DNA of 32,965 nucleotides from a virus: positions 1 to 32,965 of the IMG/VR virus record IMGVR_UViG_3300047667_000273. One strand, 5' to 3'. A program made the translations under genes and the position numbers. The notes beneath the pieces were generated by a model, which searched no databases, had not been told where the DNA came from, and was given only the letters and a program-made list of their open reading frames with translations. Below, piece by piece: positions 20,861-32,965 of the stretch; position 1 is the first letter of the stretch, and each line of letters begins with the position of its first letter.

Positions 20861-20928
20861 TGGTCTGCCCTCCTAAGGCGTGTGCTAGGGTACTGTTAGT
20901 AGTTATACCTTTGGAAGACTACAAGTCT

Positions 20929-20967: not shown

Positions 20968-20991
20968 GGGGAGGCCCGTAAAGACCTCCCC
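20968..20991 (-). terminator. Hairpin terminator after the decoration gene
   Basis: GGGGAGG (20968-20974) and CCTCCCC (20985-20991) form a perfect 7-bp stem with a 10-nt loop, seven bases after the decoration gene stop. On the minus strand the stem is followed by ATCTTTACT, a weak U-tract. It may therefore only attenuate, giving more head than tail transcript before the new promoter at 20929-20957. Confidence 0.65.
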
Positions 20992-30119: not shown

Positions 30120-31969
30120 GTGCTTTCCCTGACAATACCAGAATCACCAATGTCAACATCCCAAACACCAAACTTGTTAATGTGGCCCATGAAGCCAGAG
30201 CTGATGTTTAAGGTTTGTGCAGATAAGTCAGGAAGTGCAATTGGCGTCGTGTTGGCAGTCAATACTGTTCCGCTTACAGCGCCGTTAATGAAAGTAGACC
30301 CATGACGAGAAGCGATGTTGAACGGCACGTTAAGGCCCGGTGAATATGTTGTAGAACTAGACGCAACTGAGTCACCCACGCTGCCTGTGGCCTGCTCAAA
30401 TCCTACCTGACCCGTATCTCCGATCCGAGTATCAAGAAAAAATCCAATATAATTAGAGCCGACAGAGGGCCACAAAGGGAAAGGCCGGAAAAGTTCATTA
30501 GTGTCAGCGTAAGTTATCTTGCCGCTAATCTGGAGGGATACTGCCAGCGGGTTGATCTCTTTGACTGTTATATCATCAACAAACGTAGTTTTGTTGTTGT
30601 CGGTCCATATCTGGATAACGCCCGCGTTAGATGTCGTTGTCCGGACAATTCTAGTTTCTGTAGTATTCCCAGCATTTGTAACAGTACTTACTAACGTCCC
30701 ACCCGCTATAACATTCCAAAACGCGCGCTGTGTCCCTTCAACTCTAACAGATATAGAATAAACCTTGTTTGTCTCTAAAGGCAAACTCTGCGTTGGCGAT
30801 CCTAAAGCAGAACCCGCGCCACGAGACACAGACATATAGCCTGCCGGTGCCCATACTGTTGTCATGTTTGCCGCATTATCGTTGTTGAATGTCCACCCGC
30901 TTATTCCAGTGGCAAAGTTACCATTGGTCACAAGCTCAATACCCGTGGTCTCTACAGGCGTAGGCCAAGGCAGGTTCGCCGCAGATGCGGTCAGGGTCTC
31001 AGCGGCACGGGTTACAGTTGACCCGGCTGTGGGGATGTAGGAGGAAGGGGTCGAGCCTGCTTCAAACTGCAATCCACCAAGAATTATTGCTTTGGACGTG
31101 TCACCTACATAAGATTGGAATGCCCCCGCCGTTGTTGAGTTTATTAGCCCAAGGTTGACCCGCTCAGAAGTCCTACCCCCTTGAACGAAAGTCAATCTGC
31201 AACGATAAAAGCCGTTGCCGACATCCTCCATGGTAGCCGTGCAACCGGATTCAACTGTGACCACGCCGTTGATTAAGTCAAAATTTGCGTAGGTTGTAAC
31301 ATTGCCCGATAAAGCCTGATAGAACGAAAGCTGTAGAAGCCCGCGCCCACCCGGTGCGTTTTTAGCATATATAGAAGCGGTGTGACTATCGCCAAGAGAA
31401 AACGAAACCACCTCACTGACAGTGACGTGTGAGGCAGTGGTCGCCGCTTCATAAAGCCTGTCGGCGTTTTGACTTCCATCTGGTGAAATGTCTGTATTGC
31501 CCGAAACAGTTACATTGCTCCCCTTTAACCAGACCCCGTTCGTGTAGTCTTGGGAGTACGAAAGCAAGTTCGTCCGCGCTTCGCTCTCAAGCTGCAAGCC
31601 ATTGTTGGCCCACGCGCCGCCTTCGTAAAGGTGTGAACCCTCGCGGGGTACACCATCGGCAACAGTTACAAGCGTTCCTGTGCTGTCAAACATGGTCGCG
31701 TTGCCGGATCGGGCAAAGGTGGTTGTGCTTGCTAGTGTGGACTGAACATTGTTGCTTCGGTAGTAGCCATTAATAAAGTCTAAGAAAAACTTAGATGTAG
31801 AGGAAAACAAGTTACCTTTGTACCATGCAGCCTTCATATCAGATATTGTACCAGACAAACCTGCGTTAGACAAATAAGCTTTTTGCTTATCGTCCATAGT
31901 TCCAGCATACCCTTGGTCAGCAAGGGAGTTGAACTCTTGGTCTTGGCTTAGGTCTGGGAATAATCTCAC
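30116..31969 (-). CDS. Tail fibre/spike with carbohydrate-binding-type modules
   Basis: 617 residues. The N-terminal 55 residues carry a virion anchor pattern (Phe-Pro-Asp-Leu, Tyr-Ala-Gly-Thr-Met-Asp-Asp-Lys-Gln-Lys-Ala-Tyr-Leu). From residue 120 there is a Glu-Ala-Arg-Thr-Asn-Leu-Leu, Trp-Leu-Lys-Gly and Pro-Asp-Gly-Ser-x-Asn-Ala-Asp block, as in phage spike carbohydrate-binding modules. A second module near residues 340-470 begins Leu-Val-Thr-Asn-Gly-Asn-Phe and Gly-Trp-Thr-Phe. The C-terminal part is beta-rich (concanavalin/LamG-like pattern). These modules would bind host-surface glycans; no enzyme motif is seen. DNA coding the first 75 residues is AT-rich like the rest of the phage, then becomes GC-rich. 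Overlaps terS by 4 bp. Confidence 0.75.
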   Translation of the reverse strand: MRLFPDLSQDQEFNSLADQGYAGTMDDKQKAYLSNAGLSGTISDMKAAWYKGNLFSSTSKFFLDFINGYYRSNNVQSTLASTTTFARSGNATMFDSTGTLVTVADGVPREGSHLYEGGAWANNGLQLESEARTNLLSYSQDYTNGVWLKGSNVTVSGNTDISPDGSQNADRLYEAATTASHVTVSEVVSFSLGDSHTASIYAKNAPGGRGLLQLSFYQALSGNVTTYANFDLINGVVTVESGCTATMEDVGNGFYRCRLTFVQGGRTSERVNLGLINSTTAGAFQSYVGDTSKAIILGGLQFEAGSTPSSYIPTAGSTVTRAAETLTASAANLPWPTPVETTGIELVTNGNFATGISGWTFNNDNAANMTTVWAPAGYMSVSRGAGSALGSPTQSLPLETNKVYSISVRVEGTQRAFWNVIAGGTLVSTVTNAGNTTETRIVRTTTSNAGVIQIWTDNNKTTFVDDITVKEINPLAVSLQISGKITYADTNELFRPFPLWPSVGSNYIGFFLDTRIGDTGQVGFEQATGSVGDSVASSSTTYSPGLNVPFNIASRHGSTFINGAVSGTVLTANTTPIALPDLSAQTLNISSGFMGHINKFGVWDVDIGDSGIVREST

Positions 31970-32460
31970 TGCATCATGCCTTCTTCTTTGAGACGAGCCA
32001 CGTCCTCGCTAAAATGGTCGTAGGCTTTTGCAGTTGTATCTTTCTTGACAGTCTGGACAGCTTTGGTCCTACCTTTCCAAGGCTCATCAATGAGGTACTT
32101 GGCAGCAGCAAAACTGTTCTTGTCACCAACATTTGTAGCAGCAGCAATAATAACACTAAAGGCTTTCTGCTTACGCTTGATGTCTGCCTCTGAGCGCCAG
32201 TCAGCTAGGTACGAAGGCATGAAGGCAGCTTCACGTAGCTTAAGCCAATACCGGAGGTCACTGAAGACAGCATCAGCAAAGACAGACTCAGTAGGATCAT
32301 CAACAGTAAGGGCAACATACAATTCTCTCAGACAAGGAAGGGAGGTATCCAAGCCATTGAGAGACATAATAGGTACATTCTCAGGCTTACATGTTTCTTT
32401 GAACAAGCTATTGGTCTTAGGCAACCCGTTAGTCGTCCAGAGTTGGTCTTTACGGAACAT
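31966..32460 (-). CDS. terS: Putative terminase small subunit
   Basis: Start chosen at ATG 32460, five bases behind GGAGAAG; a longer frame uses TTG 32478. The 164-residue protein contains Val-Asp-Asp-Pro-Thr-Glu, a Tyr-Trp-Leu-Lys-Leu-x-Glu-Ala block, Tyr-Leu-Ala-Asp-Trp-Arg, a Lys-Arg-Lys-Gln-Lys helix, and Ala-Ala-Lys-Tyr-Leu-Ile-Asp-Glu-Pro-Trp before a basic C-terminal part. This order resembles small terminase subunits of marine podoviruses as I recall them, where the helical domain binds the packaging site. It is the first late gene after the promoter/tRNA-like region and lies about 5 kb from terL. A non-terminase structural role remains possible. Confidence 0.5.
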   Translation of the reverse strand: MFRKDQLWTTNGLPKTNSLFKETCKPENVPIMSLNGLDTSLPCLRELYVALTVDDPTESVFADAVFSDLRYWLKLREAAFMPSYLADWRSEADIKRKQKAFSVIIAAATNVGDKNSFAAAKYLIDEPWKGRTKAVQTVKKDTTAKAYDHFSEDVARLKEEGMMQ

Positions 32461-32495
32461 ATTCTTCTCCAGAGACAAGGATTGTAGATATTATA

Positions 32496-32532
32496 ACCAC
32501 TACGTGGCCCAGTAGGGTTCAGAGGTAGTGGT
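32496..32532. repeat. 8-bp inverted repeat between terS and the tRNA-like element
   Basis: ACCACTAC (32496-32503) and GTAGTGGT (32525-32532) are perfect reverse complements separated by 21 bases, which include a smaller GCCC/GGGT pairing. In the minus-strand transcript it lies just 3' of the tRNA-like element and upstream of terS. It could be an RNA processing or attenuation structure. Confidence 0.5.
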
Positions 32533-32545
32533 CGTATGGGTTGAG

Positions 32546-32639
32546 TGAGGTAGGTGGGATTTGAACCCACGGCGATCAGCATAGAGTACCTGCCAAACGC
32601 TTCCCGTCGGAATGCTTTAATCCTCTCAGCCACTGCCGC
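32546..32639 (-). tRNA. Serine-type tRNA-like element, atypical or degenerate
   Basis: On the minus strand a class II tRNA outline is visible. The D-arm region has Ser-type TGGCTGAGAGG, and the T-arm is canonical (GTGGG, TTCAAAT, CCCAC at 32570-32554). There is a long region between the D- and T-arms, and the 3' acceptor strand is CTACCTC followed by A. The acceptor pairs GCGGCAG/CTACCTC with two mismatches. The presumed anticodon arm folds best as TTCC-GACG-GGAA with only four loop bases, so no standard seven-base loop with U33 can be placed and the anticodon is uncertain (CGA Ser or GAC Val are both possible). CCA is not encoded. It may be a degenerate tRNA or a tRNA-like RNA. Confidence 0.5.
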
Positions 32640-32647
32640 ACTCATGG

Positions 32648-32716
32648 GGTACATACAAGTTCGGACTATTCGTCGTGGTATCGGGCACTTGTCCACCCAC
32701 CAACTTTGTATGTACC
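32648..32716 (-). other. Long stem-loop in the late leader
   Basis: GGTACATACAAGTT (32648-32661) pairs with AACTTTGTATGTACC (32702-32716), a 14-bp stem with one bulged base. The 40-base loop has further GTGG/CCAC complementarity. It lies in the leader between the promoter at 32853-32881 and the tRNA-like element. The stem is too long for a tRNA acceptor, and no D- or T-arm can be placed in it. Confidence 0.6.
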
Positions 32717-32852
32717 ACAACAATGCGGCTTAGTACTGTTCTTAGACAAAGAAGAAGGTTTTCCCCATACTACAAGTATGAAACCTTAAGTATTGTTATT
32801 CTTTAAGAGTATTAAGCTTAAGTTCTTCATACTGTTTGAATACTATAAGTAT

Positions 32853-32881
32853 ATTATAACATACTCCGCGAGGTATGTCAA
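32853..32881 (-). promoter_or_regulatory. Perfect-consensus sigma70 promoter for the late operon start
   Basis: TTGACA (32881-32876) and TATAAT (32858-32853) on the minus strand are separated by exactly 17 bp, a full consensus match. Transcription would start near 32846 and run through the leader stem-loop, the tRNA-like element, terS and the fibre/lysis genes. The -35 box lies within an inverted repeat. Confidence 0.85.
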
Positions 32882-32897
32882 GCATAAAGTGACATAC
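32859..32897. promoter_or_regulatory. Operator-like inverted repeats overlapping the promoter
   Basis: GTATGTCA (32873-32880) and TGACATAC (32890-32897) are perfect 8-bp inverted copies with 9 bp between them and cover the -35 hexamer. A third half-site ACATAC (32859-32864) is the inverse of GTATGT and lies in the promoter spacer. Half-sites about 17 bp apart suit a dimeric DNA-binding regulator, phage or host. No candidate regulator gene is seen in this window. Confidence 0.6.
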
Positions 32898-32934
32898 TAG
32901 GTGAAATAGTTTACTAGGTGTGTCAAACTAGGTG
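32896..32934. repeat. Three direct repeats of ACTAGGTG
   Basis: ACTAGGTG occurs at 32896-32903, 32913-32920 and 32927-32934, with start-to-start spacings of 17 and 14 bp. They lie just upstream (-50 to -90 side) of the late promoter. They might be activator sites or iteron-like replication elements. From 32935 to the window end I see no further gene or signal. Confidence 0.7.
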
Positions 32935-32965
32935 GTTCTGTCCCTCCAAAGGTAGTAAATTTTGC

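Follow-up and report, generated by a model that had tools for sequence, protein, structure and literature searches.

According to PMC6775973, cobaviruses occur worldwide in marine metagenomes and have two-armed genomes with a bidirectional terminator and no tRNAs, the isolates carrying direct terminal repeats. The word "promoter" does not occur in PMC6775973, and no description of a cobavirus late-promoter pair was found in the literature searched, which included few subscription papers and covered parts of PMC6775973, PMC6918029, PMC8528129, and PMC10783043. Nor was any mapping found there for cobaviruses that bears on late-gene timing in T7-like podoviruses without a phage RNA polymerase. 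A conserved late-promoter pair with a shared start-site box is therefore undescribed in the literature searched. Here, we analyze a promoter region of this type from a metagenomic contig.

The window and its two consensus promoters

The window, meaning the whole stretch of DNA analyzed, is a complete IMG/VR virus record of 32965 bases whose record kind is classed as linear, often a fragment; it does not include the left part of the genome. Its large terminase shares 67.5% identity with that of Celeribacter phage P12053L and 67.2% with that of Lentibacter phage ICBM1, and its capsid protein is 57% identical to that of ICBM1. Replication and nucleotide genes occupy the plus strand and virion genes the minus strand, the latter forming a right arm arranged as in the P12053L and ICBM1 genomes. 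This gene order fits the cobaviruses (Zobellviridae, Cobavirinae), and the phage is a marine podovirus related to roseophages. The nearest record by gene layout is apparently PQ867845.1, with consecutive metallophosphoesterase, MazG, and ribonucleotide reductase genes. No DNA matches to positions 31800-32965 were found among phages at an E value of 1e-5; with E up to 10, the best 20 of 60 matches to positions 32460-32965 were short, and several fell on tRNA genes. The only close protein relative of the first right-arm gene in IMG/VR lies on a near-identical contig (L002/L008/L132) that ends at the start of this gene and so lacks the promoter region. The features discussed below are as follows.

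20916 to 20928, minus strand: start-site dyad of P2, AGACT-TGT-AGTCT, at the same offset as the dyad of P1
20929 to 20957, minus strand: P2, the second 12/12 promoter, from the whole-window scan and relatives
20968 to 20991, minus strand: hairpin resembling an intrinsic terminator, directly before P2
31966 to 32463, minus strand: first gene behind P1, 165 aa, phrog_8035 (no assigned function), no Pfam match
32546 to 32639, minus strand: tRNA-like stretch in the P1 leader, Rfam RF00005 at 33.2 bits (gathering threshold 29)
32635 to 32729, minus strand: long hairpin of the P1 leader with imperfect pairing (83% complementarity over 24-nt arms), z = -4.0 for 32630-32735
32767 to 32779, minus strand: second dyad copy near P1, 12/13 identical, with perfect arms
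32840 to 32852, minus strand: start-site dyad of P1, ATACT-TAT-AGTAT, a candidate operator lying directly against the -10 box, with its centre at the predicted +1 (32846)
32853 to 32881, minus strand: promoter P1, TTGACA-17-TATAAT with extended -10 (TG), from the whole-window scan and its conserved place in relatives
32873 to 32897, no strand assigned: inverted repeat GTATGTCA-9-TGACATAC, arms 32873-32880 and 32890-32897, at chance level
32896 to 32934, no strand assigned: three direct repeats ACTAGGTG (32896-32903, 32913-32920, and 32927-32934), between P1 and the contig end

The whole-window scan for sigma70-type promoters yielded only two 12/12 sites, P1 and P2 (20957-20929). P1, which the first-pass annotation had already called as a full-consensus sigma70 promoter, was confirmed on the minus strand: its -35 box TTGACA (32881-32876) and -10 box TATAAT (32858-32853) are separated by a 17-nt spacer, inside the 16-18 nt range of sigma70-type promoters, with TG before the -10 box, it reads leftward, and its predicted start lies at about 32846. 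As in Cobavirinae right arms, it sits directly upstream of the first right-arm gene, the phrog_8035 gene that heads the virion genes. This gene is perhaps the small terminase subunit, because a relative adjoins the large terminase gene in PQ867845.1 and in ICP2-type phages.

Relatives of the first right-arm gene came from three scans that gave 80, 17, and 27 loci; the 27 loci all lie on contigs of the first scan and, together with L103 and L104, where the match begins inside the gene, were left out of the promoter table. Duplicates and relatives with fewer than 150 nt upstream were dropped, the window was not counted, and the division into Siovirus and non-Siovirus loci follows the query that fetched each locus, not a tree. 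A promoter scoring at least 10/12 within 200 nt upstream of the gene was present in 60 of 71 distinct relatives versus 117 of 1420 shuffles, with an exact TTGACA in 57 of those 60. All 13 distinct Siovirus P1 regions carry 12/12 promoters, whose -35 box sits 129-158 nt upstream of the start codon (a count that includes 5 nt of the gene). The remaining 11 of 71 had no promoter at the P1 place by the 10/12, 200-nt rule (L009, L010, L011, L022, L052, L057, L067, L071, L084, L087, and L147), and one of these counted misses, L147, has a 12/12 promoter just past the 200-nt limit. Because P1 leads the block of virion genes and is conserved in relatives, we read it as the right-arm (late) promoter.

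Promoters pointing outward, toward the right genome end, were surveyed as well. None of the T7 phiOR type was found in the window, where the best such site scored 9/12. Among 56 distinct non-Siovirus right ends, 24 have an outward second promoter of 11-12/12 (4 of 280 shuffles do), as against 0 of 12 Siovirus regions; examples are L146 40364 (+), L007 8929 (+), and loci of the L047-L078 group, and the place resembles that of T7 phiOR.

P2 follows the capsid gene and one 161-aa ORF. A hairpin and promoter directly after the capsid gene were also seen in ICBM1, ICBM2, P12053L, SIO1, and CRP-5; CRP-4 has the terminator-like hairpin at this place and no P2-like promoter. Scanning 78 capsid loci (80 less L208 and L219, where the contig end truncates the match) for promoters scoring 10/12 or better in the 900 nt that follow the gene gave 64 positives; these comprise 40 distinct P2-type promoters, 37 of which score 12/12. 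A further set of 20 long contigs contained 17 with a capsid gene, of which nine were read (the other eight were not located on the plus strand by the pattern used); four of the nine had a 12/12 promoter, one an 11/12 promoter, and four (L239, L240, L241, and L243) only 8-9/12. Separately, a third promoter of 11/12 lies between the terminase and portal genes at L143 33240 (-), L004 4039 (-), and L005 1525 (+); it is conserved among ICBM1, P12053L, and SIO1 and has no 11/12 counterpart in the window.

The start-site dyad and the P1 leader

The letters that follow the -10 box read ATACTTATAGTAT at P1 and AGACTTGTAGTCT at P2. Both contain a perfect 13-bp dyad with 5-bp arms and a 3-bp centre at equal offset, and the two dyads differ by one compensated pair (T-A to G-C) and one centre base. 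The copy at 32767-32779 has its centre 73 bp downstream of that of the P1 dyad, or 6.95 turns at 10.5 bp; lying inside a folded hairpin (32757-32789), it could instead be an RNA feature. Perfect 5-3-5 dyads number 46 over 32953 positions of the window, and the P1/P2 family is found only at P1, at P2, and at 32767. Two such dyads within one mismatch of each other arose in 0 of 3000 shuffles of the P1 region. Agreement between P1 and P2 in the window amounts to 16/22 positions after the -10 box, compared with 3/17 in the spacer and 14/40 upstream, and 16/22 was reached by 0 of 100000 base shuffles. The element is thus a promoter dyad beyond chance that recurs at another promoter, which is the pattern looked for in an operator.

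A shared start element is also seen in relatives. Five Siovirus P1/P2 pairs (ICBM1, P12053L, SIO1, L090/L162, and L091/L171) agree at 22/22 positions of the start element with spacers at 6-9/17, and three further pairs share less (14-15/22 in the start element, 7-9/17 in the spacer); the Siovirus rows are close relatives and so not independent. P1 of the window matches P2 of these eight genome pairs at only 7-8/22 positions. The Siovirus element is an imperfect dyad, with a mean of 3.4/5 pairs at the best centre over 9 distinct rows, and among the phages compared the dyad is perfect only in that of the window. In ICBM2- and CRP-type relatives, P1 and P2 start sequences differ, as judged by eye. 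A universal start-site dyad was also considered and discarded, as none occurs at a fixed place in 42 distinct non-Siovirus P1 start regions.

A start motif that recurs at P1 and P2 suggests that one phage protein controls both, and an element common within a genome yet differing between clades is the trace expected from a common trans-acting reader. As the first-pass annotation had stated, no regulator gene was recognised among the ORFs scanned in the window. HTH_39 was not found in the window and is present in 6 of 20 records, namely ICBM1, P12053L, SIO1, ICBM2, and those of L090 and L091; these six comprise five with the Siovirus element plus ICBM2, and HTH_39 is therefore no more than a candidate regulator.

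From its predicted start to the gene, the P1 leader RNA would measure 383 nt, and its predicted fold is much more stable than those of shuffled sequences (z = -4.3 for 32480-32846). The tRNA-like stretch within it departs from a tRNA gene in having no normal anticodon arm and two acceptor mismatches, and ARAGORN called no tRNA at 32546-32639. Part of its acceptor strand pairs in the base of the hairpin at 32635-32729; because the same letters are used, the two folds exclude each other. In exact searches, the 5' part of the stretch had 0 matches in viral contigs, and the T-arm was found in genome_contigs on one archaeal contig (L247), which gives no clue to the host. ARAGORN on loci L009-L245 reported tRNAs only in L228 and L245, and Rfam at gathering gave 0 hits in five reference-phage stretches and 0 in 13 relatives, so that the tRNA-like stretch was found in no relative searched. 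A decayed tRNA gene and a processing signal are both possible identities.

Competing readings of the P1 region

The reading that we prefer, and consider somewhat better than even, is that this is the right-arm (late) promoter region of a Cobavirinae-related phage, probably located just inside the right genome end, and that the dyad is the operator of a phage protein acting on both late promoters. Host RNA polymerase with the housekeeping sigma factor would start at about 32846, and transcription would run leftward through the leader into the virion genes; P2, behind its terminator-like hairpin, would begin transcription anew downstream of the capsid gene. A phage DNA-binding protein with two-fold symmetry would bind the dyad and switch or tune P1 and P2 together, and looping could be aided by the second copy near P1, which faces the same side of the helix. 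We infer the late timing, the regulator, the looping, and the role of the repeats from the anatomy and conservation of the sequence, which are observed directly. The first-pass annotation had argued that a strong host-type promoter in a lytic phage must be kept silent early. Such silencing is not required, since a linear genome that enters left end first could delay P1 by entry order alone.

A start sequence common to two promoters can have other uses, in promoter escape or at the 5' ends of mRNAs, and the same two promoters might work without an operator, the start element being selected for escape, pausing, or 5'-end stability while timing follows from DNA entry order and template copy number. 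This alternative would explain why identity in Siovirus continues for 22 nt beyond the -10 box and reaches into the RNA, and why other clades keep their own P1 start sequence without a dyad (ATAAGTATAGGG in one, AACACAAGTGATTCG in another), and full-consensus promoters need no activator. Symmetry in the window is nonetheless kept by a compensated change, T-A at P1 and G-C at P2, and transcription covers just one half of the dyad, observations that a role at the RNA level does not explain; we regard this account as unlikely. Still less probable, to the point of being very doubtful, is the model of the first-pass annotation, in which the inverted repeat over the -35 box is a repressor site accompanied by further CATACT half-sites. 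The repeat is present and overlaps the -35 box as described, and a related half-site, AACATACT, was found in the spacer at 32858-32865. All four CATACT copies were likewise recovered (plus strand, at 32766, 32828, 32860, and 32893), while the "several inverse copies" hold for the 5-mer AGTAT (four) and not for AGTATG (one, at 32775). The cluster of five copies is beyond chance (0 of 2000 shuffles), the only 170-bp stretches of the window with five copies overlap the P1 region, and ATACT/AGTAT words between -60 and +110 of the P1 -35 start number 8 in the window and at most 4 in any of 59 relatives. The cluster is, however, partly built from the two dyads (32840-32852 and 32767-32779). An 8-bp inverted repeat with arms at most 30 bp apart occurs in 318 of 2000 dinucleotide shuffles of the P1 region, and the repeat over the -35 box is therefore not beyond chance; its arms ACATAC/GTATGT recur in only 1 of 59 other promoter regions (L091), and neither GTATGTCA nor its inverse has a copy near P2. 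On the shuffles and this lack of conservation, we ruled out the -35 repeat as an operator. What stands of the earlier interpretation is a strong host-type phage promoter with operator-like symmetry, and the start-site dyad is, on sequence grounds, the better operator candidate. The start-centred dyad and its copies, P2 with the same element, the tRNA-like stretch, and the conservation in relatives had all been missed.

The upstream repeats invite a different reading, in which they are end-processing or packaging sites (bound, for example, by the small terminase) or a replication origin, and the region is mainly a genome end. It concerns the repeats only and is compatible with P1 as a late promoter. 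The three copies of ACTAGGTG were confirmed and are beyond chance, with any 8-mer present three times in 8 of 2000 shuffles of the P1 region, and the window holds three further single copies elsewhere. In ICBM1, where about 100 bp separate P1 from the annotated direct terminal repeat, AGGTAACA occurs twice in this interval and once inside the terminal repeat, which favors the packaging or origin reading. So does the occurrence of other short repeats at the same place in other clades: ACTTTAA words form the upstream-of-P1 repeats in one, and seven copies of CATTCGCA fall in the 350 nt preceding the promoter selected for the first right-arm gene of L079 and L080. A collinear alignment also links the 84 nt upstream of P1 to the ICBM1 sequence that separates the terminal repeat from P1, with a score equalled in 45 of 2000 shuffles. 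Against it, ACTAGGTG is absent from all 59 other promoter regions of relatives, and the contig stops 84 nt upstream of the P1 -35 box, before any terminal repeat. By eye the contig end suggested a terminal-repeat boundary; the alignment of the last 30 nt alone to ICBM1 was not significant, being matched by 855 of 2000 shuffles. Clade-specific short repeats upstream of P1 favor sites for a genome-end protein over those for a P1-specific activator, and the ACTAGGTG repeats probably form a set of protein sites of their own, tied to the genome end; their more specific assignment to packaging or an origin we judge rather improbable. A long inverted repeat (L246, 1 to about 410) opens the circular record PQ867845.1, beside the late promoter across the record origin as seen by eye, and may reflect either a fold-back artefact of assembly or a true feature of the genome end.

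Returning to the operator reading, we offer only tentatively, and expect to be wrong somewhat more often than right, the broader proposal that cobaviruses, as T7-like phages lacking an RNA polymerase of their own, transcribe their late genes from two host-type consensus promoters whose common start-site box diverges in step, that a phage regulator of clade-varying specificity reads it, and that this box, not promoter strength, sets late timing. A start-site box common to two late promoters and varying between clades would offer a direct handle for finding the regulator and testing the timing.

Comparison with known systems

In kind, the P1 region is an ordinary phage control region; its detail is new. 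The lac O1 operator is centred near +1 of a sigma70 promoter, and the window resembles it in that a strong promoter has a dyad across its start point and an auxiliary copy in helical phase, with the difference that this dyad is known from sequence alone. The lambda-type late promoter pR' works with Q; P1 is likewise a strong, constitutive-looking late-gene promoter with a special start-region sequence, but no Q-like gene and no leader terminator were recognised in the fragment, and a dyad takes the place of the pause element. T7 phiOR is a promoter near the right genome end of its phage, a position that P1 shares in a T7-like podovirus and at which ICBM2/CRP-5-type relatives have an outward consensus promoter, whereas the window promoter is host-type and reads inward. 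Close counterparts are the right-arm promoter regions of Siovirus (ICBM1, P12053L, and Roseobacter phage SIO1). Their start element has another sequence (8/22 to the window) and an imperfect dyad, their leader is about 110 nt rather than 383 nt, their upstream repeats differ, and they have no tRNA-like stretch. They share with the window a consensus promoter at the P1 place, a second promoter after the capsid gene behind a terminator-like hairpin, and a start element common to both promoters.
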